From assembly GCA_001897515.1 (NCBI GenBank), contig MKTA01000015.1, positions 248,001-312,000 of the forward strand: a DNA stretch of 64,000 nt. Direction: 5' to 3'. Position 1 is the first letter of the stretch; every line of letters begins with the position of its first letter. Source of the DNA: Bacteroidetes bacterium 41-46. GTDB taxonomy: Bacteria > Bacteroidota > Bacteroidia > Bacteroidales > UBA932. The notes beneath the pieces are model-generated. The model was given only the letters and a program-made list of their open reading frames with translations. It was not told the DNA's origin and ran no database searches. This document shows, piece by piece, positions 43,634 through 58,401 of the stretch. A program made the position numbers and the translations under genes.

Positions 43634-45121
43634 ATGAAATTCATCCGGCAATTGGGTGTCAAGAGGCTGGTTAGTTTTTTTGTAACACCACTTGTTATTC
43701 TTTATCTCCTTCTTTTTGTTGAATTTGTTCCTGATAATCCAAGGATAGGCTACACATTTTGTGTTGCTCTTTTAATGGCTGTCTGGTGGATAACGGAGGT
43801 TGTCCCTCTTGCAGTTACCTCATTAATCCCTGTTGCACTTTTTCCGTTGTTTGGTATAATGGATGGTAGAGCGGTCTCAGCCACATATTTTAACGATGTA
43901 ATATTTCTCTTTATGGGAGGTTTTTTTGTGGCTCTTGCAATGGAGAGGTGGAACCTGCACAGAAGGATAGCATACAACATCCTTTGTTTTACAGGTACCA
44001 GTCCTGCGAGAATACTTCTGGGATTTATGCTTGCATCATTTTTCCTCTCTATGTGGATTTCAAATACTGCAACAGTGATGATGATGCTTCCGATAGCTAT
44101 GGCAATAATTGTACAACTTGACAATCTGATGGGAAACAGAAGCTCTGCAAAGTTCTCGCTTGCAATATTGCTGGGTATCGCATACAGTGCCTCCACCGGT
44201 GGGATGGCAACGCTAGTCGGAACTCCTCCCAATCTCTCTTTTGCCAGAATCTTTCACATATACTTCCCGGATGCTACAGAGATCTCCTTTTATAAATGGA
44301 TGCTATTTGCATTGCCTGTATCACTAATAATGTTAGCAATTATATGGTCTTTTTTATATATCATGTTTCGCCCGGCAAAAGAGGAGTGGCGTGATGTTGA
44401 CAAAAATACTTTTCTCTCTATGTTAAAGGAGATGGGCAGGACCAGCAGTGAGCAGAAGACAGTTTTTGCCCTCTTTACTTTGCTTGCGCTACTCTGGATA
44501 GGGAGAGTTGATATTGACCTGGGTATATTAAAAATCCCGGGGTGGAGCAATCTCTTTCCGGATTCTAAATACATAAATGACGGAACAGTTGCAATCTTTA
44601 TAGCTTTAACTCTTTTTGTGATTCCTTCCTCTTCTGAGAGAGGGGAGAGACTTATGGACTGGGCAACGGCATCAAAAGTACCATGGAATATTCTGTTGCT
44701 TTTTGGAGGAGGGTTTGCACTTGCAACAGGATTTAAGGAGAGCGGCCTATCATTGTGGTTTGGAGAGCACCTCTCCGGTGTTGCAGCTCTTCACCCATTT
44801 CTGATTATTCTAACAATTTGTCTTGTTATAACTTTTCTGACAGAGCTTACTTCAAACACTGCTACTACAGAGATGATCCTTCCTGTTCTTGCCGGTTTAG
44901 CGATTTCAACTGGTATTAATCCCATAATGCTGATGATTCCGGCAACTATGTCGGCCTCAATGGCCTTTATGCTTCCGGTGGCAACTCCTCCCAATGCTAT
45001 AATTTTTGGGACAGGACGTATCTCTGTGAGCACTATGGCCAGAACGGGACTATTAATAAATCTTGCCGGAGCACTTATAATTTCACTTATGATGTATTTC
45101 TGGGGCGAGATCTTAAATTAA
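43634..45121 (+). CDS. Divalent anion:Na+ symporter (DASS family)
   Basis: 495 residues with about 12 hydrophobic helices. The two helix-hairpin signatures with SNT triplets are visible: WISNTATVMMMLPIA and ELTSNTATTEMILPVLAG, each binding Na+ and the substrate carboxylate in VcINDY-like proteins. Likely cargo is a C4-dicarboxylate, citrate or sulfate. The start at 43634 is preferred to a TTG at 43622. The stop overlaps the convergent cbiB gene by 4 bp. Confidence 0.92.
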   Translation: MKFIRQLGVKRLVSFFVTPLVILYLLLFVEFVPDNPRIGYTFCVALLMAVWWITEVVPLAVTSLIPVALFPLFGIMDGRAVSATYFNDVIFLFMGGFFVALAMERWNLHRRIAYNILCFTGTSPARILLGFMLASFFLSMWISNTATVMMMLPIAMAIIVQLDNLMGNRSSAKFSLAILLGIAYSASTGGMATLVGTPPNLSFARIFHIYFPDATEISFYKWMLFALPVSLIMLAIIWSFLYIMFRPAKEEWRDVDKNTFLSMLKEMGRTSSEQKTVFALFTLLALLWIGRVDIDLGILKIPGWSNLFPDSKYINDGTVAIFIALTLFVIPSSSERGERLMDWATASKVPWNILLLFGGGFALATGFKESGLSLWFGEHLSGVAALHPFLIILTICLVITFLTELTSNTATTEMILPVLAGLAISTGINPIMLMIPATMSASMAFMLPVATPPNAIIFGTGRISVSTMARTGLLINLAGALIISLMMYFWGEILN

Positions 45122-46053
45122 ACTAATGTTAGAATAACAAAAGTCAATCCAATTACAAATACTCCTATGTTTGTTTTTGTTGCAAATAAGATATCAGAAT
45201 GACTAATTCCTCTTGGATTGTCTCCAATGTAAGGTTTTAATACAACTTCCCCGTGATATAGGCTAGGACCGCCTAAAGTACAGTCTAAAGCTCCTGCCAA
45301 AGCGGCTTCAGGATAACCAGAATTTGGACTAGAGTGACATCGGCCATACTTTATGATAAATCTAAATGATCTGATCTTGGCGGTTGTTATAAAAATCAGA
45401 AATGCTGTAATCCTTGCCGGTATATAATTTGCAAAATCATCTAGCTTGGCCGAAGCTCTCCCAAATTTTAGAAATCTCTCATTTTTATAACCTACCATAG
45501 AATCAAGTGTGTTTACCATTTTGTATGTCATCATAAGAGGGATGCCTCCGATAGCATAATAGAATAAGGGGGCAATAACTCCGTCACTTAGATTTTCCGA
45601 CATAGTCTCAAGCAGAGCCATCCTTATTTTATGTGAGGAGAGTTCTGATGTATCTCTACCGACAATCTCCCTTAAACTCTCTCTTGCCTTATTAATGGCT
45701 CCCTGATTTAGTAGTTTTTCAACTTTAAGGGCCTCTGTTATAAGAGATTTATTGCTTAATCCAAAAAAAATGAAAATTGATGAGTAAACAAACATAAAGA
45801 GGTTATTATAAGATGCAATCTTCTGTATGCCAAAGAAAATGAACCACGTCCCAACAGTAAGCAGTGTGCACATAAACAGCCCTTTAATCGTTTTGGCCGA
45901 ATCTCTATTGAACTTTTTCTCCAGAATGGTTATAGTTGCACCAAAAAGCCTGATTGGATGAGGAAGATTTCTTGGGTCGCCAAAAAGAGAATCTAAAAAA
46001 GCCCCAAAAATTAGAGCACTAATAAATATATATTGTTTATCAAGCATATTCAA
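45118..46053 (-). CDS. cbiB: Adenosylcobinamide-phosphate synthase
   Basis: 311 residues, integral membrane protein. CbiB joins aminopropanol (phosphate) to adenosylcobyric acid to give adenosylcobinamide (phosphate). Diagnostic segments: LFGDPRNLPHPIRLFG at the N-terminus, VGRDTSELSSHKI, ETMSENLSDGVIAPLFYYAIGG, and the VNTLDSMVGYKNERFLKFGR stretch. It is the last gene of the downstream cobalamin operon and overlaps cobD by 4 bp, matching the enzyme that consumes the product of cobD. Confidence 0.95.
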   Translation of the reverse strand: MNMLDKQYIFISALIFGAFLDSLFGDPRNLPHPIRLFGATITILEKKFNRDSAKTIKGLFMCTLLTVGTWFIFFGIQKIASYNNLFMFVYSSIFIFFGLSNKSLITEALKVEKLLNQGAINKARESLREIVGRDTSELSSHKIRMALLETMSENLSDGVIAPLFYYAIGGIPLMMTYKMVNTLDSMVGYKNERFLKFGRASAKLDDFANYIPARITAFLIFITTAKIRSFRFIIKYGRCHSSPNSGYPEAALAGALDCTLGGPSLYHGEVVLKPYIGDNPRGISHSDILFATKTNIGVFVIGLTFVILTLV

Positions 46054-47075
46054 AAATTTGTTGATAAGTCCTGCAACGCCTTGATAAGCCTATTATTCTC
46101 TTCCCTGCTTTGAGTTGCAACCCTGAAATGGTACTTAGTAAGGCCTTTAAAGTTTGATGCATTTCTTATTAGGATCCCATATTTTTTTAATAATATTGAT
46201 TTTAATAGCCGGGCATCAATTCGCGTTGATTTAATTAGGAAGAAATTACAGTCAGAGGTTGTAACTTCAAAACCTGATATTTTACTAATAGCTTCTTGTA
46301 GAGCCTGCGACTCTGAACAAAGTTGATTAATGTCAGGAAGAAGTTTTTCATATCGATCCATAATGTATTTCCCAGCAATAAGGGCAATAGAATTAACACT
46401 CCAAGGTGGTCTCATTTGACGGATCTTACTAATTATGTCAGGTGAGGCTACAATGTATCCGAGTCTTAGCCCTGGTATAGCAAATGCCTTTGTAAGGGAT
46501 CTTATAATTATAAGATTTTTGGGGATTACATTTGGCGATTTAGCAACTTGTTCCGTTTTACAAAGATGGATATACGCCTCATCCATGACAATTAAAGATT
46601 TTGGGTTCTCTTTGCATAGTGTTATAATTATGTCCGTTGGTATAATACTGCCGTCTGGGTTGTTGGGGTTACCTATCCATATCGTTCTGAAGTTTGACAG
46701 ATTAGCTTTAGTTATTTGATGTGTAGAAATATGGGTAATCTTGTGATTATGCAGGATGCATGCATCACGGTACTCTGCGAAAGAGGGTGTCTGTATTGCA
46801 CTATGAGCATTAGCTGTATAATGGGCGACTATATAGAAGGCCTCAGCGGATCCGTTTGTAATAAGTATGGACTTTACAGAAGTATTGTGGTGAGATGCAA
46901 TAATCTTTCTTAACTCAGAAGCTTCAGGGTCCGGATAATTACTAATGTTGTTAATGTTCTCTTTAAGATGCTCAAATATCTCTTCATTCTTGCAGTTGAA
47001 TGCAATATTAGAGCTAAAATCCAGCTGAACACTATACCTGCTGTTGTAAATATCATTGCCGTGACCTTTAATCAT
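46050..47075 (-). CDS. cobD: Threonine-phosphate decarboxylase-like aminotransferase-fold enzyme
   Basis: 341 residues, PLP fold type I, HisC-like. The PLP Lys lies in RSLTKAFAIPGLRLGY, Asp/Tyr of the cofactor site in VMDEAYIHL, Asn in WIGNPNNPDGS, and the C-terminal Arg in YHFRVATQS. In cobalamin loci this HisC relative is CobD (Salmonella nomenclature), which makes aminopropanol phosphate for CbiB. The N-terminus HGNDIY is also the CobD type. It overlaps cobQ by 8 bp and cbiB by 4 bp. Confidence 0.88.
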   Translation of the reverse strand: MIKGHGNDIYNSRYSVQLDFSSNIAFNCKNEEIFEHLKENINNISNYPDPEASELRKIIASHHNTSVKSILITNGSAEAFYIVAHYTANAHSAIQTPSFAEYRDACILHNHKITHISTHQITKANLSNFRTIWIGNPNNPDGSIIPTDIIITLCKENPKSLIVMDEAYIHLCKTEQVAKSPNVIPKNLIIIRSLTKAFAIPGLRLGYIVASPDIISKIRQMRPPWSVNSIALIAGKYIMDRYEKLLPDINQLCSESQALQEAISKISGFEVTTSDCNFFLIKSTRIDARLLKSILLKKYGILIRNASNFKGLTKYHFRVATQSREENNRLIKALQDLSTNF

Positions 47076-48537
47076 AAAACAGTGTATTATAAATGTAATT
47101 CATATCAGAATTCTCCCGGAACCATTTTGCCAGTTTATTATAATTCTCCTCTCTAAGAGAGTTTACCTCAACAGCCGGATTAAAATCTTCTATATTATCA
47201 GATAGCATAAGACTAATTATTGATGGGTTATCAAATAGGCCATGTATGTAACTTCCCCATGTATTCTCATTCAAAAAGTACCCGTCCTCTTCTCCGTTAT
47301 CCAGAATTGCAAATGGCTTTTCCCCGGTTGTTATGCCAGAGTGGATTTCATACCCCTCACCGCATCCACTACCGTTTGCTAGGTTAAAAGAGCATCTGCG
47401 GGTAATTTTTCCAGTTTTTAGCGTTGTTTCTACAGGTAATATTCCCAAACCTGGAGCTGACTCAATTTCGCCTTCAATATGAAAAGGGTCATATATGTAC
47501 TTGCCCATAATCTGGAATCCGCCGCAAATTCCATAAATAGGTTTGCCCATGGAATGGCGTCTTAGGAGGGCTCCGGACAATGAGGATTCTCTTAAAAAGT
47601 TGAGGTCTGAGATAACGCTTTTTGACCCGGGAATTATGACAATATCAGAAGTTTCTATCTCTTTTGAGTCTCTTGTGTAGAATAGAGACACCCCAGGTAG
47701 TTGCTCCAGTGTGTTGAAGTCTGTAAAATTTGACATGTGTTTCAGGTGTACAACAGCGACTTTTTTACCTCCACTCTTCTTTCTGTTAAATACTTTTTCT
47801 AGAATAACAGAATCCTCCTGATCAATGAAAATGTGATCAAACCATGGCAATAATGCTACGACTGGAATTCCGGTAAGCTCTTCGATTATTTTCTTTCCTT
47901 CCTCAAAGAGATTAACATCTCCTCTGAATTTGTTAATAATAATTCCTTTAATTGCAGCCCTCTCTTCAGGAGAGAGTAATAAAACTGAACCATAAAGACT
48001 TGCAAACACACCTCCTTTATCTATATCTGCTATCAGATAAGTTGAAGCGTTGCTATACAGTGCCATTCTCATATTAACGATATCCCGGCTTTTTAAATTC
48101 AACTCAGCAATACTTCCGGCTCCCTCCAGAACTATTGGGTTATATAAGGAATCTAAGTGATTATATGATTTTTTCACACATCTAAATAGATCCTCCCGTC
48201 CTTCATCTTTGAAATATTCGGATGCACTTCTGTTTCCAACGGGCTTGCCATCCACTATTAACTGGGCAATACAGTTATTTATAGGCTTTAACAGTATTGG
48301 ATTCATCTCGGAAGTGCATTCAATTCCACATGCCTCTGCCTGCACAGCCTGAGCTCGGCTGATCTCTTTGTTGTCTTTTGTGGCAAAACTGTTAAGCGAC
48401 ATATTTTGAGCTTTAAAAGGTGCCGGAGAGTATCCATCTTGCAGAAGAATTCTGCAAAAAGCGGTATTAATAATTGATTTCCCAACATCTGATCCAATCC
48501 CAACAAACATTATTGATTTTAACCTTTTTTTACTCAT
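47068..48537 (-). CDS. cobQ: Cobyric acid synthase
   Basis: 489 residues. It amidates the b, d, e and g side chains of adenosylcobyrinic a,c-diamide with glutamine. N-terminal P-loop GIGSDVGKS with PFKAQNMSLNS, dethiobiotin-synthetase-like middle region (ADIDKGGVFASLYG), and a C-terminal class I amidotransferase with nucleophile Cys in YGICGGFQIMG and His in YIHGLFDN. Its presence in an otherwise late-pathway operon suggests that corrin-ring genes lie elsewhere or that cobyrinic precursors are used. It overlaps cobC by 4 bp. Confidence 0.95.
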   Translation of the reverse strand: MSKKRLKSIMFVGIGSDVGKSIINTAFCRILLQDGYSPAPFKAQNMSLNSFATKDNKEISRAQAVQAEACGIECTSEMNPILLKPINNCIAQLIVDGKPVGNRSASEYFKDEGREDLFRCVKKSYNHLDSLYNPIVLEGAGSIAELNLKSRDIVNMRMALYSNASTYLIADIDKGGVFASLYGSVLLLSPEERAAIKGIIINKFRGDVNLFEEGKKIIEELTGIPVVALLPWFDHIFIDQEDSVILEKVFNRKKSGGKKVAVVHLKHMSNFTDFNTLEQLPGVSLFYTRDSKEIETSDIVIIPGSKSVISDLNFLRESSLSGALLRRHSMGKPIYGICGGFQIMGKYIYDPFHIEGEIESAPGLGILPVETTLKTGKITRRCSFNLANGSGCGEGYEIHSGITTGEKPFAILDNGEEDGYFLNENTWGSYIHGLFDNPSIISLMLSDNIEDFNPAVEVNSLREENYNKLAKWFRENSDMNYIYNTLFYD

Positions 48538-49082
48538 AATAATTTATAATCTCCATCTTTAATTTTAATAATTTGACCATATGATATCTCAATTGAGAAT
48601 GACTCCTCTGGGGTGGTAATGTTTAGAACAGACAAAAAAGCTCTAATTACGCCTGAATGTGTTATAATGAGAGTGGCTTTTGCATCAAGAGGTATCTCTT
48701 TTAAGAATAATTCTACCCTCTTATGTAAGTCTCTGTAAGATTCTCCATTTGGGCATTTCTCATCAATATAATTTGCAAACCATCTTTTTCCCTCTTCTTC
48801 CTGAAATACTTCATTCCAGGAAACACCCTCCCAATCACCAAAATCCATCTCTATGAGCCTATTATCAAATATTATTCTTCTTTTAAAACACTCAGCAAGT
48901 TTTTTGCATCTATTAAGCGGACTGCAATACACTCTGCCAATTGGTATATCTTTAAATTTTTCCCTTATTAATTCAGCCTCCTCCAAAAAGCTATCAGCCA
49001 GGTCTATGTCAGTAGAACCGTAGCATATACCTTCCTTAATCTTTAAACGTGTATGTCTAATTAAATATATAATACCCCACAT
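48534..49082 (-). CDS. cobC: Alpha-ribazole phosphatase-like histidine phosphatase
   Basis: 182 residues, histidine phosphatase superfamily. The phospho-accepting His is in LIRHTRLK; the usual RHG is RHT here. Second His in IITHSGVIRAFL, catalytic Glu in IEMDFGDWEG. It most likely removes the phosphate from alpha-ribazole phosphate (or cobalamin phosphate) in nucleotide-loop assembly, from its place between cobQ and cobS. A second such phosphatase occurs at 53698. Start at MWGIIY, overlapping cobS by 22 bp. Confidence 0.87.
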   Translation of the reverse strand: MWGIIYLIRHTRLKIKEGICYGSTDIDLADSFLEEAELIREKFKDIPIGRVYCSPLNRCKKLAECFKRRIIFDNRLIEMDFGDWEGVSWNEVFQEEEGKRWFANYIDEKCPNGESYRDLHKRVELFLKEIPLDAKATLIITHSGVIRAFLSVLNITTPEESFSIEISYGQIIKIKDGDYKLL

Positions 49083-49834
49083 GACTTAAATGTTGCAAGA
49101 AATGTAATATAGAAGAGCAATTCGTTAATTAGCTGAAGAGCTCCTAGAGTGTCTCCAGTGAAACCAGATAATCTCCTATTTAAATAACCTCTGTATGCGA
49201 AAAAAAATATAATGGATAGTACAAGGTATAGCAGTGAGAAATGCCATTTAAAATAAAGAAGAGGAGCTAATGCAGTAATTGTAGCAATTAATATGGTAGT
49301 TCTGTCTGTTTTTTTTCTAGTATAGCTTGCTTTACTTAATCCCTCTCTTGCGTATGTTGAAGTGTTGACGAGTATTATAGGCCATAATCTGCTTGATACA
49401 TTTGCACTTATTAATGCTGATATTAAATTATCCTCGGGAATTAGGTATAGGCAGGAGATCTTTGTCAATATAGTAATAATTAGCCCTATAGTTCCAAATA
49501 CGCCAATAGAGCTCTCTTTCATGATTCTAAGTATGTCCTCCTTGGAGTTACCACCCCCAAAACCATCAAGAAAATCTGAAAGGCCATCCTCATGCATTGC
49601 TCCTGTAATTAGTAATATTGCAGAAATAGCGAATAACAAACCAATTATATGAGGAAGTATTAATCCGCTTAAATAGAAAACAAGTGACCCGATCCCGCCA
49701 ATCAAAGCTCCAATCAAAGGAAAGTATCTGAGCGACTTTGAGAGATTCCTCTCAGAGAAGTTGACTTTAAACGGTACTGGAAAGCGAGTATAATACTGCA
49801 GTGCATGTAAAAATATATTTAACTCCCTTTTCAT
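49061..49834 (-). CDS. cobS: Adenosylcobinamide-GDP ribazoletransferase
   Basis: 257 residues, polytopic membrane enzyme. CobS joins adenosylcobinamide-GDP with alpha-ribazole (phosphate) to yield adenosylcobalamin (phosphate). The family core is GAMHEDGLSDFLDGFGGG with its acidic Mg-binding residues, preceded by YYTRFPVPF and followed by ESSIGVFG. Overlaps cobT by 4 bp and cobC by 22 bp. Confidence 0.95.
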   Translation of the reverse strand: MKRELNIFLHALQYYTRFPVPFKVNFSERNLSKSLRYFPLIGALIGGIGSLVFYLSGLILPHIIGLLFAISAILLITGAMHEDGLSDFLDGFGGGNSKEDILRIMKESSIGVFGTIGLIITILTKISCLYLIPEDNLISALISANVSSRLWPIILVNTSTYAREGLSKASYTRKKTDRTTILIATITALAPLLYFKWHFSLLYLVLSIIFFFAYRGYLNRRLSGFTGDTLGALQLINELLFYITFLATFKSCGVLYI

Positions 49835-50811
49835 AACTCATCAAATCCGGCCATCTCATTAAGGAAGAGAAGTGCTGATTTTATAATTGGATAGGCTATT
49901 GCAACCCCTGTCCCTTCGCCAAGTCTAAGACCAAGATTTAGAACAGGCTCAGCATTTAGGTGTTTCAGCATTAGGTTATGTCCCTTCTCTTCTGAGGCAT
50001 GGCAAAAAATAGTGTTCTCAAGAACTGAACTATCTATTGCATGGGCGGCAATAAATGCAGATGTTGCTATGAAACCATCTCCCAGTATAGTCATATTTAG
50101 TTCTCTGGCCTTTAATATAGCCCCACACATCATTGCAATTTCAAAACCTCCGAATGTTGCAAGAATCTCTAATGGACTTGTCGGATTATATAAATCTGAT
50201 ACAATTTTTAGGACCTCCAATTTGTGCTTTACTCCATTATCATCATGCCCTGCACCCCTGCCTACGCACTCCTCTATTGAATAGCCGCCATACTTATGGA
50301 GTAACAAAGAGGCCGCAGATGTGTTTGCAATTCCCATTTCTCCAAAACCAATTACATTGCATCCTGACTCGTACTCTTTTAGCACAAAATTGCCACCTCT
50401 CTTAATTGCTTCTTTGCATAACCCTAAACTCATAGAGGGCTCTTTAAGCATATTTTTTGTACCTCTGCCTAGTTTTGAATTGACAATCTCATACTCATCA
50501 GGAAAGTCATAATCAACACCGCAATCAATTACTCTTAGCTTTATTCCATGTTGTCTGCAAAAAACATTAATTCCTGCTCCGCCACGATTGAAATTTATAA
50601 CCATCTTATATGTAAACTCTTTAGGGTATGGGCTAACGCCCTCTTCTGCAATTCCATGATCTGAAGCAAATACAAGAATTGCAGGGTTTCTAAAGTCTGG
50701 ATTCAATGTACCTTGTATTGATGCTACCTTTAATGCAATTCGTTCAAGTTTTCCTAATGAACCAATTGGTTTTGTTCTACTATTTATTTTGTCTAAAATC
50801 TGATTTTGCAT
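49831..50811 (-). CDS. cobT: Nicotinate-nucleotide-dimethylbenzimidazole phosphoribosyltransferase
   Basis: 326 residues. CobT activates the lower-ligand base (DMB or another benzimidazole/adenine) as alpha-ribazole phosphate. Family features are RTKPIGSLGKLE at the N-terminus, the ASDHGIAEEGVSPYP segment, VGRGAGHDDNGVKHK, and the catalytic Glu in ASEEKGHNLM. The base used in vivo is not decided by these residues. Overlaps cobS by 4 bp; 8 nt after cobU. Confidence 0.95.
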   Translation of the reverse strand: MQNQILDKINSRTKPIGSLGKLERIALKVASIQGTLNPDFRNPAILVFASDHGIAEEGVSPYPKEFTYKMVINFNRGGAGINVFCRQHGIKLRVIDCGVDYDFPDEYEIVNSKLGRGTKNMLKEPSMSLGLCKEAIKRGGNFVLKEYESGCNVIGFGEMGIANTSAASLLLHKYGGYSIEECVGRGAGHDDNGVKHKLEVLKIVSDLYNPTSPLEILATFGGFEIAMMCGAILKARELNMTILGDGFIATSAFIAAHAIDSSVLENTIFCHASEEKGHNLMLKHLNAEPVLNLGLRLGEGTGVAIAYPIIKSALLFLNEMAGFDEL

Positions 50812-50819
50812 AACAACTG

Positions 50820-51329
50820 TTATTTAATAACTAATGGAATCCCTGAAACCATAAATATTACCTTATCCGCACTCTTTGCAATGAACTGGTTCATCCAGCC
50901 TTGAAGATCTGTAAAATGTCTAGAGCTTTCGTCTGGAGCGTGAAGCGACATACCTATCTCATTGCTTACAACAATAATTCTTGAGTTTTGAGACGAGAAC
51001 TTAATCCATTCTCTTTTAGCCTCTTCAAGTGATTGATTAATTTTAAAGTCGTTGTCATGGTAAATATTGGTAAGCCATAAGGTTATACAATCAAGGAGAA
51101 TAGTTTCTCCATCAAGTTTCACCTCTCCTATTCTTTTATCAACTTCTAATGTTTTCCATTTATCTCCTCTGGCAAGTTTATGTTTATTGATTCTATCAAT
51201 GAAATCGCTATCCCATTTTCTTGCTGTAGCGAGATAATAAGGGCAGGCGGAGAAGCTCTCCGCCATACCCTGAGCATAACTGCTCTTACCGGATCTTTGG
51301 CCACCGGTAATTAAGATTATCTCCCGCAT
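50820..51329 (-). CDS. cobU: Adenosylcobinamide kinase / adenosylcobinamide-phosphate guanylyltransferase
   Basis: 169 residues. Bifunctional enzyme that phosphorylates cobinamide and adds GMP. Walker A GGQRSGKSSYAQ, the guanylylation region with His in RINKHKLARGDKW, and VVSNEIGMSLHAPDESSRHF. Second gene of the downstream operon, 5 nt behind btuB; enables cobinamide salvage. Confidence 0.95.
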   Translation of the reverse strand: MREIILITGGQRSGKSSYAQGMAESFSACPYYLATARKWDSDFIDRINKHKLARGDKWKTLEVDKRIGEVKLDGETILLDCITLWLTNIYHDNDFKINQSLEEAKREWIKFSSQNSRIIVVSNEIGMSLHAPDESSRHFTDLQGWMNQFIAKSADKVIFMVSGIPLVIK

Positions 51330-51334
51330 CTGGA

Positions 51335-53434
51335 TTAAAACCTAAAACTGAAGTGCCCCATAACAGATCTGCCAGGCATATTGTATCCATCCTTTTCAGT
51401 ATAATTTTCATCAAAAAGATTTGATGCTGTAATACCTACTCTGAACCTTCCGGACAGATCATAGTATATATGAGAATCAATTACTAAATAACTGGGATGT
51501 TTTAGAATCTGGTCACTCTCAGTATATCCACCTTTTATGTAATAATCTGAAGACTTAATTTCTGGTCTGAGATTCTCCCAAGCCATCCAGTCATTCTCTA
51601 ATCTGTGACCCGCATATCTGCAGTTTATCCCAAATATAAAACCTTTGTAATTATCAAAGCCAAGGCCGAAATTTCCGGTAACATCTCTGGCGTACAAACT
51701 CTTTTTTGTGACTCCGTCGTTGAAGGTGTTATTAATGAGCCATGTTAATGCACCATATAACTCAAGTTTATATTTACTAGTCCATAATCTGGCTATGTTT
51801 GATGTTGTTAAAAATTCCAGACCACTCATCTCACCATCTGAAGCATTTTTGTATGTTACTATATCCTTCTGACTATTATCATTTACTATTTTATTCCGAT
51901 AATAGTTTTGGAAATAGGTTATGTCAACATTTATATACTTGCCGCTTCCCAGTTTGACTCCAAAATCAAATGATGTCGTACCTTCCGGTTTAAGATTAGG
52001 ATTACCTACATATTGCTTTTTGCCAATCATATATACTCCGGCACTTTTATATGCATCAGGGACATAAAAGCCACTTCCTGCACTTCCCTGCAGCGAGAAC
52101 CAGGGCCGGACGATGTATTTAACACCTAGAGATGGATTAAAATTTGTGTAATTTGAGCTCATCCCTTCACAACCCATCATTTCATTAGCTTTCATTTGGT
52201 AATGTATAAGATTAAATCTCCCGCCGGCGTTTAAATACAATCTGTTTCTGCTATACGCAACTTGTGTAAAAGCAGAGAATGAGGCCCTTGTGTGATCCGG
52301 TCGGTAAGGATTCATAGGTGTAAGTTTTGATGAAAATCGCTCAGAGCTAACATCGTATATATCGTAATCTATGCCTGCAAGCCATCTGAAATTACCCCAT
52401 ATATGTGTATTGCCGACTTTTATACCGGACTGACTAATCCTCTCACGGGAGTTAATAAAAGCACTTTCTGAATTATCGCTATAATTTGCTTCACTCTGAG
52501 TAGTTATATAGGGTGATAAAGTCAATATATTATTCTTCTCTATATAGGTAATCTCACCATAATTGGCAAAACGTGTAATCTCCTTTTTTGATTTTCCATA
52601 GCTGTGCCAGTAGTTACCTGGTGTTTCAATATCATTAGACAGCATTAAAGTGGAGTAGAGATTTGCTGTCACTTTTTCTCCAACTTTATATTCAATCTTT
52701 CCATTAAACTGGTTTATTCTGAATTTCGTGTTCTCCATTACATCTCCATAAGATTTTTTATCCAGAATCAGCTTTTCTGTCTCACTAATTCCTAAAGCAT
52801 TACGGGAGCCAATAATGTAGTCTGCTGTTTGCTCTGTTCTACTGTATGAAATGGATGTAAGGAGTTTGTCTGTAACACTGCCACTTGCATAGCCATTTAT
52901 AAAGGTTTGGCCAAAATTACCTGCTCCTACAGAGGCTCCCCCACTATTTAAACCGGACGCTTTTTTAGAGATAATGTTGATTACTCCGCCCATGGCATCT
53001 GAACCATACAGGACAGAATAGGGACCCTTGACAATCTCTACTCTCTCAATAAAATCAGATGGAATGGTTGCTAGGTTATTTGTGCCGGCCGGCAGTCCGT
53101 CAATTAGAATTAGTGTGTAGTTTCTTGAGTGTGCAGTTGCGGGGAATCCCCTTAGGCCAATAGTTGTCATTGCTCCCGGATACTGAATCACATCAAGGTT
53201 AGTCCTTCTTTTGAGAATGTCACCTAAATTGTCTTGAGGTGTTGTGCTTATAACAGACTTGTCAAGTAACTCTACCTTTTGCGGGATACTTTTAAGTGGT
53301 AAGTGCATTCTGGAGGAAACTATAACGGCTTCCTGGATTTCATAGTTTTTTGTTGTGTCGGTTTGTCTTTCCAGTGCTGATGCACTGAAAGAGAGGAGCA
53401 TAAATAGTACTCCTGGTAAGAATTTTAATTTCAT
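51335..53434 (-). CDS. btuB: BtuB-like TonB-dependent corrinoid receptor
   Basis: 699 residues. Signal peptide (MKLKFLPGVLFMLLSFSASA), a TonB-box-like EAVIVSS near residue 33, a plug domain (about 45-170: TTIGLRGFPATAHSRNYTLI, VEIVKGPYSVLYGSDAMGGV) and a 22-strand barrel ending GHFSFRF. Its place directly behind a cobalamin riboswitch and ahead of cobU marks it as the outer-membrane receptor for corrinoids. It is first in the operon btuB-cobU-cobT-cobS-cobC-cobQ-cobD-cbiB, so import and assembly are repressed together by cobalamin. Confidence 0.93.
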   Translation of the reverse strand: MKLKFLPGVLFMLLSFSASALERQTDTTKNYEIQEAVIVSSRMHLPLKSIPQKVELLDKSVISTTPQDNLGDILKRRTNLDVIQYPGAMTTIGLRGFPATAHSRNYTLILIDGLPAGTNNLATIPSDFIERVEIVKGPYSVLYGSDAMGGVINIISKKASGLNSGGASVGAGNFGQTFINGYASGSVTDKLLTSISYSRTEQTADYIIGSRNALGISETEKLILDKKSYGDVMENTKFRINQFNGKIEYKVGEKVTANLYSTLMLSNDIETPGNYWHSYGKSKKEITRFANYGEITYIEKNNILTLSPYITTQSEANYSDNSESAFINSRERISQSGIKVGNTHIWGNFRWLAGIDYDIYDVSSERFSSKLTPMNPYRPDHTRASFSAFTQVAYSRNRLYLNAGGRFNLIHYQMKANEMMGCEGMSSNYTNFNPSLGVKYIVRPWFSLQGSAGSGFYVPDAYKSAGVYMIGKKQYVGNPNLKPEGTTSFDFGVKLGSGKYINVDITYFQNYYRNKIVNDNSQKDIVTYKNASDGEMSGLEFLTTSNIARLWTSKYKLELYGALTWLINNTFNDGVTKKSLYARDVTGNFGLGFDNYKGFIFGINCRYAGHRLENDWMAWENLRPEIKSSDYYIKGGYTESDQILKHPSYLVIDSHIYYDLSGRFRVGITASNLFDENYTEKDGYNMPGRSVMGHFSFRF

Positions 53435-53469
53435 TAAATAAAAAGTTGTTAGTTAAACAATTTGCTTAA

Positions 53470-53670
53470 CCACAAACTTTCGAGTGCTTTTATCCCCGAA
53501 AGCGATGGTTCTGCTGCCAGCAGGTCTTCCGGCTCGTCTCTCTTCTGAGGCCTTCCCATCATGCATTTGACAGTGGCTTTCATCTCAGAACTCATTTTTT
53601 GGACATACGGCTGCGGGTACAGCTCCGGCTTTTCTGATTAAATCAAATTACCGGATTCCATTTTGCTGGC
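53470..53670 (-). ncRNA. Cobalamin riboswitch upstream of btuB
   Basis: On the minus strand the leader has the conserved cobalamin-riboswitch elements: a CCGGAGCTGTACCCGCAGCC region (53628-53609), GCCACTG, GGGAAGGC, and the B12 box AGCCGGAAGACCTGC (53534-53520). A hairpin (CTTTCG/CGAAAG, 53502-53477) near the end may be the expression platform just before btuB. Likely repression in the presence of adenosylcobalamin. Confidence 0.93.
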
Positions 53671-53697
53671 TTTTGAATAGTGGGTGAAACGTCAATT

Positions 53698-54282
53698 TTA
53701 TTTCATAGGCATTAGTTTTAAGTGGTTAGTATTGTTGTAGTCAATTATTTTGTATGAGCCGTATTTTTCCTCTTCAATAACTGTTATAGAGCAGTTTTGG
53801 AGATTGGGAAAATTATTTATTGAGTTCAAATCGGCATTAAGCAGGTAGCAGATAATTAATTTTAAAGTTATGCCGTGACTTACTATCAGTACAACGCTAT
53901 CTTTAGGATAGGCTTTTAGTGATTTGATGAAAAGAGAAACTCTCTTGTATAAATCAGTTATTGTTTCAGCTCCTTTATAATTATCAGAAGATCTCCAATT
54001 TTTTGGAAAATGTTTGCCCTGCAACAGACCTAGATACCTCTCTCTTAGTGCAGCTTCTTTTACAATATTAAGACCTCTTTTATCAGAAATAATATGTGCC
54101 GTTTGTAGCGCTCTCTGCAGATCACTTGAGAAACAGATATCTATATGGAACCTTTCTAATAATATGCTTGTAAGATTTGCCTCTTGAACTCCCTCTTTGC
54201 TTAACTGAACCTCCCTCTGTCCCTGACATATACCAGTCAGATTATCAAGTGTTATCCCGTGCCTTACCAGAATCAGCTTCAT
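53698..54282 (-). CDS. Histidine phosphatase family protein (CobC-like)
   Basis: 194 residues from the ATG at 54282. Phosphohistidine motif LILVRHGITLDN, second His in VLIVSHGITLKLI, catalytic Glu in LRERYLGLLQG. It is the last gene of the upstream cobalamin operon, 4 nt after the BtuD-like gene, so it may be an alternative alpha-ribazole phosphatase or act on another cobalamin phosphate. Broad-specificity phosphoglycerate-mutase-like phosphatases cannot be excluded. The in-frame ATG at 54357 is inside btuD. Confidence 0.8.
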   Translation of the reverse strand: MKLILVRHGITLDNLTGICQGQREVQLSKEGVQEANLTSILLERFHIDICFSSDLQRALQTAHIISDKRGLNIVKEAALRERYLGLLQGKHFPKNWRSSDNYKGAETITDLYKRVSLFIKSLKAYPKDSVVLIVSHGITLKLIICYLLNADLNSINNFPNLQNCSITVIEEEKYGSYKIIDYNNTNHLKLMPMK

Positions 54283-54286
54283 AACT

Positions 54287-55090
54287 CTATCTTTTTGAAA
54301 ATCTGCTGGATACTTGAAATATAGCTGGTTTTCCAGAGACTGGGTTTCTGCTCTCAACTACAATTGTATTATATGCCATTTCTACATTATTGTATTTTAA
54401 CACCATCTCCGGTTTTCCCTGAATAATGACAGCTCCCTCTTTCATTAGTAAAAGATGGTCGCAGTACTCTCCTGCAAGATTCAGATCATGAATAATCATC
54501 AATACGGTTAGTTCCTCCTCCGAATTTAACTTCTGAAGAAGATTCATAATTTTTGACTGATAAGTTATATCCAGATGTGACGTTGGCTCATCAAGCAGAA
54601 GCAGAGATGGCCTCTGAGCGAGTGCACATGCTATAGCTGTCATCTGAAGTTCACCTCCGCTTATTTCAGTTACTCGCTTGTTTTTCAAATGATAAATACC
54701 TGCAAGATTCAATGATTGATCAACAATTGCCATCTCCTCTTTTGTATCATTAAATTGAAATGCAGCTCTGTGTGGCATTCTTCCCATTAATACATACTCT
54801 TTCACCATTATTGGACTCTTTTCTATAAATTGTGGAACTTGAGCAACTCTTTTGGCTCTTTCTCTTAATGACAGAGAAGTGAAATTATCTCCGCCAACTG
54901 TTACCTTTCCGGCTATTGGTTTAAGTTCCCCTGTTAGCCCTTTGAAAAGAGTACTTTTGCCGGATCCGTTTCCTCCAATTATTCCGGTAAACGATCCTTT
55001 TGTAAGGGACATATTTACAGGTTCTAAGACAAAGCCGTTTCTATAACCGCAAATAAGGTTATCTGCTATCAGGTATTTTTCTTTATCCAT
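54287..55090 (-). CDS. btuD: Corrinoid ABC transporter ATPase (BtuD-like)
   Basis: 267 residues. Walker A GGNGSGKST, signature EISGGELQMTAIACAL, Walker B LLLLDEPTSHLDI, H-loop IIHDLNLAGEY. Typical of FecE/BtuD ATPases. It overlaps btuC by 22 bp, and its downstream gene is a histidine phosphatase. It drives import across the inner membrane; the riboswitch upstream of the operon identifies the cargo as cobalamin or a precursor. Confidence 0.93.
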   Translation of the reverse strand: MDKEKYLIADNLICGYRNGFVLEPVNMSLTKGSFTGIIGGNGSGKSTLFKGLTGELKPIAGKVTVGGDNFTSLSLRERAKRVAQVPQFIEKSPIMVKEYVLMGRMPHRAAFQFNDTKEEMAIVDQSLNLAGIYHLKNKRVTEISGGELQMTAIACALAQRPSLLLLDEPTSHLDITYQSKIMNLLQKLNSEEELTVLMIIHDLNLAGEYCDHLLLMKEGAVIIQGKPEMVLKYNNVEMAYNTIVVESRNPVSGKPAIFQVSSRFSKR

Positions 55091-56085
55091 ATCAAAATAA
55101 TGAAAGTGATTCCTCCAAAAATTCCTGTTATTACCCCAATTGGGAGCTCATTTGGAAATACTAGAGTTCTTGCCAGCATATCACACAGGAGCATAAAAAC
55201 ACTTCCGGAGAGAAATGATATTATCAGTAACGAACGATAATCACTACCTGCAACAAATCTGGAAAAATGAGGTATTACCAGCCCCACAAATCCAATTACA
55301 CCCGCAACGGCAATTGAACATCCTGTAAGCATGGATGTTACAAAAAAAAGAGCACAAATTGTAAATTTTGTATTTATACCAAGGCTCCTGGCTGTCGTCT
55401 CTCCGAGTCTTAGTGTATTCAATGGAGCTGTAAAAAGGTACGAAGTCAAAAGTCCTGTAAGTGACATAATAAGCATTCCATAAACCATAACAGGATTAGA
55501 CTCGTTGAGAGATCCCATGGTCCAGAAGAGAATGCCATGAATATTTTCAATAGCAGTTACCGACAAAAGAAACATTACTGCAGATGACGAGATAAAACTA
55601 ATCATTACGCCGGTTAGAAGCATTTTGTTTAAACTCATGCCCTCTCTTTTGTAACTTAAAAAATATACCAGGAAAACAGTAACCAGAGCCCCAGAAAATC
55701 CTGCAAGCGGAAGGCTTACAGCACCTGTGCTTTGTAAGCCTGTTACTATAACAACAGTGATCCCCAGTGATGAACCTCCTGATATACCCAGAGTATAAGG
55801 CTCTACAAGCGGATTTCTGAAAATGCCCTGTAAAATAATGCCGGAAAGGCCTAAACTTCCACCCGTCGCTATAGCCAGGATTGTTCGCGGAATTCTGATA
55901 TTATGGAGAACCTGGTACTCCATGCTCCCACTATCTTTCAGATAGTAGAGTACCTTATGCGGGGCTATGGATAGCTCACCAGTTCCCACAGAAATTGCAG
56001 AAATTATTATCAAAATAACGATTAAGAAAAAAATCTTTCCTGCTTCAATACTCAATGCCTTTACGGCTTGAAACTCCATTATCAA
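55069..56085 (-). CDS. btuC: Corrinoid ABC transporter permease (BtuC-like)
   Basis: 338 residues with 9-10 hydrophobic helices. FecCD/BtuC features: NIRIPRTILAIATGGSLGLS, GIILQGIFRNPLVEPYTLGI, GAALVTVF-like helix, and the cytosolic coupling loop region LGETTARSLGIN. It forms the inner-membrane channel with BtuD and the BtuF domain encoded in the same operon. Its start overlaps the 3' end of btuR by 41 bp; a second Met two residues later is also possible. Confidence 0.92.
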   Translation of the reverse strand: MIMEFQAVKALSIEAGKIFFLIVILIIISAISVGTGELSIAPHKVLYYLKDSGSMEYQVLHNIRIPRTILAIATGGSLGLSGIILQGIFRNPLVEPYTLGISGGSSLGITVVIVTGLQSTGAVSLPLAGFSGALVTVFLVYFLSYKREGMSLNKMLLTGVMISFISSSAVMFLLSVTAIENIHGILFWTMGSLNESNPVMVYGMLIMSLTGLLTSYLFTAPLNTLRLGETTARSLGINTKFTICALFFVTSMLTGCSIAVAGVIGFVGLVIPHFSRFVAGSDYRSLLIISFLSGSVFMLLCDMLARTLVFPNELPIGVITGIFGGITFIILIWIKKNT

Positions 56086-56575
56086 AAGGGTGTTTAATTT
56101 TCTTAACGAAACTTACATAGTCGGCTACTTCAATAATAGCATCTGTAGCTGCCCTGCCAGTCAATATCAGTTCAAGTGTCTCCGGTTTCTCGTTGATAAA
56201 AAGCAGAAGTTCCTGCTCTTCAATATAACCATCCCTTACAGATATTATTACTTCATCAAGTATCAAAAGGTCGTATTTGGTCTTATGTATAAGCTCCCTT
56301 ACTTTATGTATGCCTTGTTTTGCCTCTGCTTTAATAGAATTGCTATCAAGGGATTTATCAAGATGTGGATGACCTTTTGCAAAGTTTAACACATCTGCAC
56401 CAAGCTGTTTAAGGCTTTCCATTTCAGTATAGCCATAAAGCTCAGGGTGTTTGTGAAAGGAGACATAGCATACTTTCATGCCACAACCTAGTGCTCTGAC
56501 TGCAAGTCCAATTGCAGAGGTTGTCTTCCCCTTGCCATCTCCTGTGTATACGTGTACAAGTCCAGTTCTGCTCAT
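56045..56575 (-). CDS. btuR: Cob(I)yrinic acid a,c-diamide adenosyltransferase (CobA/BtuR type)
   Basis: 176 residues. It adenosylates Co(I) corrinoids with ATP. The reversed P-loop is GDGKGKTTSAIGLAVRALG, followed by KVCYVSFHKHP and LLILDEVIISVRDGYI. The CobA/CobO/BtuR family size is about 180-200. It lies 3 nt behind the ATP-pyrophosphatase/BtuF fusion and overlaps btuC, so adenosylation is directly linked with uptake. Confidence 0.94.
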   Translation of the reverse strand: MSRTGLVHVYTGDGKGKTTSAIGLAVRALGCGMKVCYVSFHKHPELYGYTEMESLKQLGADVLNFAKGHPHLDKSLDSNSIKAEAKQGIHKVRELIHKTKYDLLILDEVIISVRDGYIEEQELLLFINEKPETLELILTGRAATDAIIEVADYVSFVKKIKHPFDNGVSSRKGIEY

Positions 56576-56578
56576 TTT

Positions 56579-57994
56579 TTAAAGTTTATTATAAATAATT
56601 TCCAGTGTCTCAGCAAACGTTACGGGAGTTGGCTGACAAGCTTTTTCAGACTCCAATATGAAAATTCTGTTATTATTAACGGCTTTCATATTGATAAATT
56701 CTCTCCACCTTCTCTCTTCATGTTCGCCGGTTATACCCATTGTGACAATGAATATGTAATCGGGATCTCTGGCAACTACGAATTCTCTTCCTATTGTTCC
56801 ACTACTTAAAGCTGAGGCAATATTTTTTCCATTTGAGTAGATAATGTAATCATTCATAAATGTTCCCGGAATCACAGTGAATATTGGTAAAGCCCCAATT
56901 TGTATAAAGAATCTGGGTGAATTGCCTCTCTTTTTCATCTCATCTCTTATTCTGTTAACTCTCTCAGCAGACTCTTTTACAATCTCTTCAGCTCTTTTCT
57001 GCTTGTCAATCAAATCACCTAGCAGTGTAAATTGATTACATATCTCTATAAAGGATCTTGGTGTTGGGAATATCTCTACCTTAATACCAAGCCTTCTTAA
57101 TGTATTAACATCTCTCTCTGAAATCATTCCAGATGCCAGAACAATATCTGGCTTAAGTTTTGCGATCTTCTCCAGGTTTGGTTTGATTGCAGAAGAGACT
57201 ATCTCAATATCATCACTTATTGCTGAATGACAGTAATTAGTGCAACCGATAAGTCTGTCTTGAGCATCCAGATAATAGATGCTTTGAGTAATAGAAGGAG
57301 TTAGTGAAATAATTTTCTTGAATTTCGTTTCGCAAGACAATGTTTTGGGAAAGAAAATGGTAAGGATAAGACAAATTAATAGTAAAGATTGAGAGAAATT
57401 TTTATTACGTTTTTTTCTAAATATCGGGCCATCAAGTACTAATGTGTGATACTCTCCGTTTTCTCCACAAGGGTCTGCCCCTTTTATTGCACAAATCTCC
57501 TTGATAAAATTTATATTAATCTCTTTATTAAGTAAATGGTCATAATCGCCACCCTCCTTTACACCTGTTACTTTTGCTTTATACCCTAGCTCGCAGAACT
57601 CTTTAATTACGGAAAGAGTCTCTCTTCCCCACAGAGGAAAAATGGGGGTAATCCCCACCTCTCTGCATACTTCTGTAGTCCAATCCCTGTGCTCCTCCAG
57701 AAATATGTCTCCAAAGACACCATATCCAATACCATCTTCTTTAAATTTTTTCATGATTTTTTTAAGATGATATTCATACCCTTTTGATGTCACCCTCTCA
57801 ATAAATAATGGAATACCTAGGGAGTGGGATTGCTCAAATAGTACATCGCTCCCGAAATTGTGGAATTTTGAAATGCTGTCAGTTTCATGTGACATATTCA
57901 ATAAAAAGGACACCTCATTTTGAGGATCGCTTAGAAAATGGTGAAGTGCAAGAGTACAATCCTTGCCGCCACTCCACGAGACAAATGCTCTCAT
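56579..57994 (-). CDS. ATP-pyrophosphatase (DPH6-like) fused to a BtuF-type corrinoid-binding domain
   Basis: 471 residues in one uninterrupted frame. Residues 1-197 match the ATP_bind_4/DPH6-like alpha-hydrolase family: PP-loop SWSGGKDCTLAL, GVFGDIFLEEHRDW, and the family end GENGEYHTLVLDGPIF. A single hydrophobic segment (201-220) ends in LSC (Cys221), resembling a signal anchor or partial lipobox. Residues 223-471 are a periplasmic-binding domain of the BtuF type (IISLTPSITQSIYYL, LKPDIVLASGMIS, EFVVARDPDYIFIV). No ATG, GTG or TTG near the junction would start a separate BtuF. The N-terminal enzyme would face the cytosol, the BtuF part the periplasm. Confidence 0.85.
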   Translation of the reverse strand: MRAFVSWSGGKDCTLALHHFLSDPQNEVSFLLNMSHETDSISKFHNFGSDVLFEQSHSLGIPLFIERVTSKGYEYHLKKIMKKFKEDGIGYGVFGDIFLEEHRDWTTEVCREVGITPIFPLWGRETLSVIKEFCELGYKAKVTGVKEGGDYDHLLNKEININFIKEICAIKGADPCGENGEYHTLVLDGPIFRKKRNKNFSQSLLLICLILTIFFPKTLSCETKFKKIISLTPSITQSIYYLDAQDRLIGCTNYCHSAISDDIEIVSSAIKPNLEKIAKLKPDIVLASGMISERDVNTLRRLGIKVEIFPTPRSFIEICNQFTLLGDLIDKQKRAEEIVKESAERVNRIRDEMKKRGNSPRFFIQIGALPIFTVIPGTFMNDYIIYSNGKNIASALSSGTIGREFVVARDPDYIFIVTMGITGEHEERRWREFINMKAVNNNRIFILESEKACQPTPVTFAETLEIIYNKL

Positions 57995-58074: not shown

Positions 58075-58255
58075 CAATTAATGTTGTTTATGGCAGGTCT
58101 TCCGGCTTGTTCCGTTTTTCGAGACCTTCCCAGATATTCGCAATACGTATCAGACTGCTTTCTCCAGTGGTCAGAGATTTCGAAAAACATAGAAGGAACT
58201 TACGGCTACGGGTATAGCTCAGGATTTTAACCTGATTCCCATTTTAAAGTTTTGC
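58075..58255 (-). ncRNA. Cobalamin riboswitch upstream of the btuF-fusion operon
   Basis: On the minus strand: GGGAATCAGG, a CTGAGCTATACCCGTAGCCG region (58223-58204), GACCACTGG, GGGAAGG and the B12 box AGCCGGAAGACCTGCC (58108-58093). It precedes the fusion gene start (57994) by about 85 nt. The rest of the 449-bp gap (58256-58443) holds the leader hairpin TTGCCT/AGGCAA and the aspS promoter. Confidence 0.92.
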
Positions 58256-58401
58256 CTGTACAAGGCAAGCAAATACTACCATTCGGGCACAAAATTACTA
58301 AACTTAATCTTTGTTCCAAATAAAATATTTGTGGGTTTCATTCTATGCCACCTGGTATATATTAGAATAAAATTGTAATAGATAATATTTATGAATTTGA
58401 C

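Follow-up and report, generated by a model that had tools for sequence, protein, structure and literature searches.

The DUF71 family (PF01902) was divided by de Crecy-Lagard et al. in 2012 into Dph6, marked by EGGE/DxE, and DUF71-B12, marked by ENGEF/YH (PMC3541065). In the excerpted text of that study, bacterial DUF71 members are given a function other than that of Dph6, DUF71-B12 genes are adjacent to B12 transporter genes in 75/102 cases and to cbiB in 18/102, and the subfamily is proposed to fill the role of CbiZ in bacteria, in pseudo-B12 salvage, with a call for experiments (PMC3541065). The DUF71 fusions named in the same excerpts are only those to AsnB in archaea and to RidA in eukaryotes (PMC3541065). 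Neither a demonstrated DUF71-B12 reaction nor a report of a DUF71-BtuF fusion was found among the open-licence PMC papers listed. The excerpted CbiR paper asks what keeps a remodelling cell from breaking down the cofactor that it has just made, and suggests coupling to uptake (PMC7733943).

Here, we analyzed a 64,000-nucleotide stretch of DNA from Bacteroidetes bacterium 41-46 (hereafter the window), in which a DUF71-B12 ATP pyrophosphatase and a BtuF-type domain are encoded in one frame. The DUF71-B12 subfamily, its link to B12 and BtuF were already known, and both halves belong to known families; what appears to be new is the joining of the two through a signal peptide, the one recent origin of this joining, and a second, signal-less fusion elsewhere. 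Genomes are given below as G numbers and loci as L numbers.

The fused gene and its operon

The features of the locus are listed in the window's own positions.

58075..58297, minus strand: cobalamin riboswitch RF00174, controlling the operon (Rfam 75.4 bits, gathering score 31.5)
56579..57994, minus strand: whole fusion gene, DUF71-B12 ATP pyrophosphatase, predicted internal signal peptide and BtuF (471 aa)
57410..57994, minus strand: DUF71-B12 ATP-pyrophosphatase domain, aa 1-195 (PF01902, PP-loop SGGKDC, signature ENGEYH)
57332..57409, minus strand: junction, aa 196-221, with basic n-region, hydrophobic run 203-216 and c-region KTLSC; predicted internal Sec-type signal
56579..57331, minus strand: BtuF-type corrinoid-binding domain, aa 222-471, stop codon included (PF01497, Foldseek, phmmer)
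56045..56575, minus strand: btuR/cobA corrinoid adenosyltransferase (PF02572)
55069..56085, minus strand: btuC permease (PF01032; best NCBIfam match BtuC, 213.7 bits, below the cut-off of 334)
54287..55090, minus strand: btuD-type ABC ATPase (PF00005; named BtuD from its position)
45118..54357, minus strand: rest of the salvage gene run, comprising the nine genes that follow
53698-54285, minus strand: histidine phosphatase-like gene (family match below the NCBIfam equivalog cut-off; His_Phos_1 among the Pfam domains of the run)
51335-53434, minus strand: TonB receptor (family match below the equivalog cut-off)
50820-51329, minus strand: CobU (named from sequence and position)
49831-50811, minus strand: CobT (named from sequence and position)
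49061-49834, minus strand: CobS (PF02654)
48534-49082, minus strand: second histidine phosphatase (His_Phos_1 among the Pfam domains of the run)
47068-48537, minus strand: CbiP (GATase_3 and CbiA domains)
46050-47075, minus strand: CobD-like aminotransferase (Aminotran_1_2; read as CobD from sequence and position)
45118-46053, minus strand: CbiB (PF03186)

The fused frame opens with ATG and runs for 471 codons with 0 internal stops. PF01902 matches aa 1-195 above its curated Pfam cut-off (E 4.3e-43), with the PP-loop at aa 8-13, and PF01497 matches aa 228-449 (E 1.1e-26, 94.1 bits against a curated score of 27.5). A preliminary description of this DNA, made from the letters and their reading frames, had reported the frame, the PP-loop, the hydrophobic segment and the BtuF domain, and both its coordinates and its wording proved right; the setting that it gave, between a cobalamin riboswitch and btuR-btuC-btuD, was borne out by Rfam and Pfam.

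An AlphaFold2 model of the fusion had a mean pLDDT of 88.3 and a pTM of 0.59, on a 43-row alignment in which only 4 rows cover BtuF. The alignment used for the fold (A4) is without four BtuF rows that looked misplaced in an earlier one (A3), which was dropped. Block means of pLDDT were 80-98 across aa 1-190, whereas the junction residues 197-222 fell below 50. On these values, the model is read as predicting each domain well singly but not their relative placement.

The riboswitch lies 80 nt upstream of the start codon of the fusion. Over the 12 loci surveyed, a riboswitch lies upstream of DUF71 in all eight BtuF-adjacent Bacteroidales loci (L043, L086, L087, L044, L052, L053, L051 and L050, that of L053 being cut by the contig end); among the other four, it precedes CobU in L079, lies farther upstream in L058 and is missing from L056 and L122. 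A second cobalamin riboswitch (53502-53685, minus strand) precedes the TonB receptor gene, and L043, L087, L044, L086 and L052 likewise have a second one. The B12 gene run carries two histidine-phosphatase (CobC-like) genes, at 53698-54285 and 48534-49082.

No match to CbiZ (PF01955) was obtained in any of 16 genomes, the window's own (93% complete) among them, and the corrin-ring gene CbiC was matched in one of the 16, which is not the window's. Since CbiZ went unfound in 16/16 and CbiC in 15/16, the organism appears to salvage corrin rings rather than make them. A CbiP-type gene (cobyric acid synthase, 47068-48537) is retained in this genome, where CbiC went undetected, and its retention suggests salvage of corrinoids bearing free carboxyls. 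The window's genome gave one PF01902 match and one match to the whole fusion protein at E<=0.001; with that single whole-protein match, no second BtuF was found in it.

The ATPase half is of the DUF71-B12 type

The enzyme half reads CGENGEYH at the position that separates the two subfamilies. A survey of 123 loci, 3 of them without DUF71, yielded 120 DUF71 rows (five of them redundant); 118 of these carry E-x-G-E-[YF]-H, the exceptions being L071 and L158, and 107 the strict ENGE[YF]H, the window included. The window combines PF01902 and SGGKD with ENGE[F/Y]H, adjacency to B12 transporter genes, and CbiB with no CbiZ found, as expected of DUF71-B12. The Foldseek score against PH1257 (2d13) was 0.78, and the score with the NCBIfam model Dph6_archaeal (77.1 bits) lay below its cut-off of 197.3. 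Plain Dph6 identity was ruled out by ENGEYH standing where Dph6 has EGGE/DxE. The preliminary description had called this half a DPH6-like ATP-PPase, which holds for the ATP-PPase and not for DPH6; it had also put the protein forward for an undescribed activity, an overstatement given that a salvage role for DUF71-B12 was predicted in 2012.

By neighbour, the 116 rows retained for the DUF71 tree divide into 12 beside BtuF, 12 beside CobU or CobT, and 92 beside neither, counts that rest on queries with the window's proteins and so miss distant homologues. In L058:7234-8516 (G275), two tandem DUF71 genes stand between CobU and CobT.

The fused DUF71 lacks the last ~20-25 residues carried by its split homologues (PF01902 covers 1-195 of 219), a C-terminal loss that could weaken the ATPase. 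PP-loop chemistry would argue for carboxylate adenylation and amide formation, while the published proposal is cleavage in the manner of CbiZ or some other way of salvaging pseudo-B12.

The BtuF half is a predicted corrinoid binder

The second half was compared with E. coli BtuF (1n2z) by Foldseek, giving a TM-score of 0.83 by target length, although related binders of heme and siderophores reach similar scores; phmmer matched it to 5ysc and 1n2z. It scored 74.5 bits with the NCBIfam BtuF equivalog, whose cut-off is 234, and none of the ten listed equivalog models reached its cut-off, while the subfamily model TroA_like did (47.5 bits, cut-off 30). In the phmmer alignment, the Glu of NLEKI and that of REF face Glu residues of Vibrio BtuF (5ysc). 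Such Glu residues of BtuF dock on BtuC. We regard this half as a predicted corrinoid binder.

Distribution and origin of the fusion

The same two-domain order, which the preliminary description had proposed to look for in other Bacteroidetes, was found in frame and at full length in four of 25 genomes from this genus, namely the window's own (G000), G449 (67% identity to the window protein), and G077 and G447 (64%). The last two proteins are identical, leaving three distinct fused sequences, the window's included; L119, from Bacteroidales bacterium STF1_254, encodes the identical protein to G449 and is the same fusion. In G089, of the same genus, the two parts are adjacent genes. Three further genomes match in the BtuF part alone (G010, G448 and, weakly, G442) and 17 have no match at all, so that the system is dispensable within the genus.

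A tree was built from 116 DUF71 domains, five redundant rows being omitted (L119, L120, L081, L160 and L087, L160 being taken as the same as L078). In it, the fused rows form one clade (ultrafast bootstrap 100, SH-aLRT 96), sister to the split G089 (100/100). The enclosing Bacteroidales clade of eight rows (99/97) has BtuF joined or adjacent in all eight. As the fused rows are monophyletic, sister to a split pair and nested in a BtuF-adjacent clade, a single, recent joining of adjacent genes is the most likely origin of the fusion. The DUF71 of G089 ends in a ~25-residue tail, and its btuF, which opens with what looks like a normal signal peptide, starts 4 nt past the stop; the fused genes have lost both the DUF71 tail and the beginning of BtuF, and their DUF71 core leads straight into the basic stretch and the hydrophobic core of that signal. 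Between the window and G449, the NG86 dN/dS values were 0.235/1.21 for the DUF71 part and 0.56/1.43 for the junction; the DUF71 value indicates purifying selection on the enzyme half.

Outside the genus, no frame spanning both domains without a stop was found in 149 family genomes (searched alongside the 25 of the genus), nor among the matches listed for 395 phylum genomes, where the next best by score (G532, aa 4-258) holds one in-frame TAA. The PF01902 cut-off was passed by 33 of 295 genomes of the order, and the surroundings of 32 of these, all but G207, were compared with the window's proteins. When all loci collected were checked by pattern for a single open frame holding both domains, only the fusions of the genus and L122 (L199 being the same place) turned up; long frames were also listed for G831 (425), G512 and G527 (473) in the phylum search and for G995, G899 and others in that of the Omnitrophota. 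A first scan of genome contigs with the fusion protein alone gave 39 pattern stretches and 0 relatives, a later one retained the best 80 of 574 relatives, and a plasmid search with the fusion as query gave no record covering 80% of it. Within the genomes searched, and L122 apart, the fusion would be confined to one small group of uncultured Bacteroidales.

Several long frames were not accepted as fusions. Those of G359 (391 aa) and G264 (299 aa) contain no BtuF-like part by eye, and the 509-aa open frame of G844 was rejected on a TAG visible in L121 between DUF71 and BtuF. This TAG (L121:2226-2228) is at odds with the reported 509-aa frame, a conflict that might reflect stop-codon recoding or an artefact of the search.

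The second fusion, in an Omnitrophota MAG (bin.182; L122:4001-5434), is a 478-aa frame with PF01902 at 1-214 and PF01497 at 222-450, in which a complete DUF71-B12 is joined directly, without an intervening signal, to the BtuF-like domain. Downstream lie a separate BtuF with a hydrophobic N-terminus, then BtuC and BtuD, and the DUF71 tree places the enzyme apart from the window's. Among the matches listed for a sample of 237 Omnitrophota genomes, only that of L122's own genome spans both parts; in G997, a BtuF-like domain 57% identical starts at a contig edge. An asparagine-synthetase-like PP-loop gene lies directly upstream of DUF71-B12 in four Omnitrophota loci (L122:2995-3963, L121:577-1584, L209:527-1486 and L214:557-1501). 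That of L122 is PF00733, with no glutamine amidotransferase domain found, and the other three were judged by eye; the gene is possibly a DUF71-B12 partner or an ammonia-handling enzyme.

The junction and a proposed mechanism

An uncharged hydrophobic run (aa 203-216) is followed by KTLSC, ending at residue 221. On sequence grounds, the junction corresponds to the signal peptide of BtuF itself, which now lies inside the chain with its apparent role kept. As it is the single hydrophobic segment between the domains, we infer that the ATPase is cytosolic and BtuF outside.

Our main reading, to which we give a probability of roughly one half, is that of a cytosolic enzyme and a Sec-exported BtuF separated by a cut after residue 221, with the enzyme acting on imported corrinoid. 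The riboswitch-controlled B12-salvage operon would yield one translation product with DUF71-B12 N-terminal and BtuF C-terminal. The internal signal would engage Sec, the enzyme staying in the cytosol while BtuF passes to the periplasm, as it must in order to serve BtuCD. Signal peptidase I would most likely cut after residue 221, releasing BtuF and leaving next to the transporter an enzyme that ends in a short membrane tail. This enzyme might then act on the imported corrinoid and supply BtuR-CbiB-CobU-CobT-CobS, in the CbiZ-like salvage or remodelling role predicted in 2012, by an ATP-dependent reaction on a carboxyl or amide group of the corrinoid.

In the three fused sequences, the uncharged runs are 14-15 residues long and the h-cores 12-13, with Pro at or near the end. 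A typical membrane-spanning helix is longer than 14-15 residues. The putative cut, shown by a slash, falls at LSC/E in the window, GSS/E in G449, LSA/E in G077 and LSA/E in the split G089. Given the short h-region, the Pro near its end and a site resembling LS(A/C) followed by E, we favour signal peptidase I cleavage over a permanent tether, at about 5:3. Run length does not settle the matter, since split signals (11-22 residues) overlap with the runs of BtuC (17-32, where only runs of at least 16 were listed). The residue past the site weighs against the cut, being Glu and not Gln: by eye, it is Glu in the split proteins of G089 and G158 and Gln in G289 and G010, and the excerpted literature has most Bacteroidetes signal peptidase I substrates exposing Gln (PMC5837995).

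The chain might instead stay uncut, with BtuF outside and DUF71-B12 inside still joined, so that the corrinoid is modified on leaving BtuCD. Both the low-confidence junction between independently folded domains in the AlphaFold2 model and the signal-less Omnitrophota fusion, through which the link between enzyme and binder appears to have arisen twice, are compatible with this arrangement, and coupling of remodelling to uptake is suggested for CbiZ and CbiR in the excerpts of the CbiR paper (PMC7733943). The 14-15-residue run with Pro and small residues behind it nevertheless resembles a cleavable signal, a point blunted by the overlap of run lengths noted above, and we hold the uncut chain to be the less probable of the two. 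It is a shade more doubtful again that such a two-sided protein sits on BtuCD and remodels only newly imported corrinoids, sparing the cell's own cofactor. The preliminary description had offered a membrane-tethered two-sided protein as one of its readings; its fusion, B12 operon and single hydrophobic segment stand, the topology is a prediction, and the tether has become less favoured than the cut.

An internal translation start could also yield BtuF alone, the fusion then being a by-product of overlapping genes. Codon 185 of G449 and G077 is an ATG, from which translation would provide BtuF with an ordinary signal peptide, ~29-38 aa long. In the window, however, codon 185 is TTA, and ATG, GTG, TTG and CTG are all missing in frame from codon 121 to the h-region at 203, for which reason its BtuF should come from the fused chain; the next candidate is TTG 219, past the h-region (rare starts such as ATA or ATT lie outside this count). 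We consider this explanation improbable.

The preliminary description had also noted LSC at the end of the hydrophobic segment and suggested a preprotein cut at Cys221 into an enzyme and a BtuF lipoprotein. The window does have Cys at 221, and B. thetaiotaomicron BtuF is listed as lipidated in the excerpted source (PMC12751083). The equivalent residue is, however, Ser in G449 (SS/E) and Ala in G077 and the split G089 (SA/E), so that the lipobox Cys is not conserved and the lipoprotein reading fails, leaving it very unlikely. TLSC, moreover, fits a lipobox poorly.

An assembly or sequencing artefact that deleted a stop, which the two genes at the same place in G089 might recall, close relatives with two genes being what the preliminary description had said would refute its reading, is extremely unlikely, since other congeners are fused: the three distinct fused sequences differ in the sequence and length of their junctions while all keep the frame, the G077 genome is a single contig, and the split pair of G089 therefore speaks for a recent fusion rather than an error.

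Implications

The fusion to a corrinoid binder is strong Rosetta-stone evidence that the substrate of DUF71-B12 is the corrinoid delivered by BtuFCD, and an independent joining in L122 ties the function of the enzyme still more closely to that of the corrinoid binder. The fused protein offers a handle for a direct assay of DUF71-B12 and makes the idea of coupling to uptake testable, and its junction is a case of a signal peptide turned internal yet keeping its apparent role.

Comparison with known systems

CbiZ and CbiR are not known to use ATP. These corrinoid-remodelling hydrolases share with the window's enzyme the proposed position in the pathway, and some lie near transport genes according to the excerpted CbiR paper (PMC7733943). 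The proteins are unrelated to DUF71-B12, and CbiZ was undetected in the window's genome. Dph6 shares the PF01902 fold (phmmer 3rjz and 2d13; Foldseek 2d13) and differs in having EGGE/DxE where the window has ENGEYH. With BtuF, the window shares PF01497, the fold of 1n2z and 5ysc, and an operon with BtuC and BtuD; its putative signal peptide, however, is internal (aa 196-221), behind a ~200-residue enzyme, and none is present at the N-terminus. The L122 fusion has the same two families in the same order and in a B12 operon, whereas its DUF71 tail is full, no signal lies between the domains, and a separate, exported-looking BtuF follows. DUF71-B12 is a further close system, with which the window shares the PP-loop, ENGEYH, the adjacency of btuF, btuC and btuD, and the presence of CbiB where CbiZ is undetected, and from which it differs in the missing C-terminal tail and in a BtuF fused to the enzyme through what is predicted to be a signal peptide.
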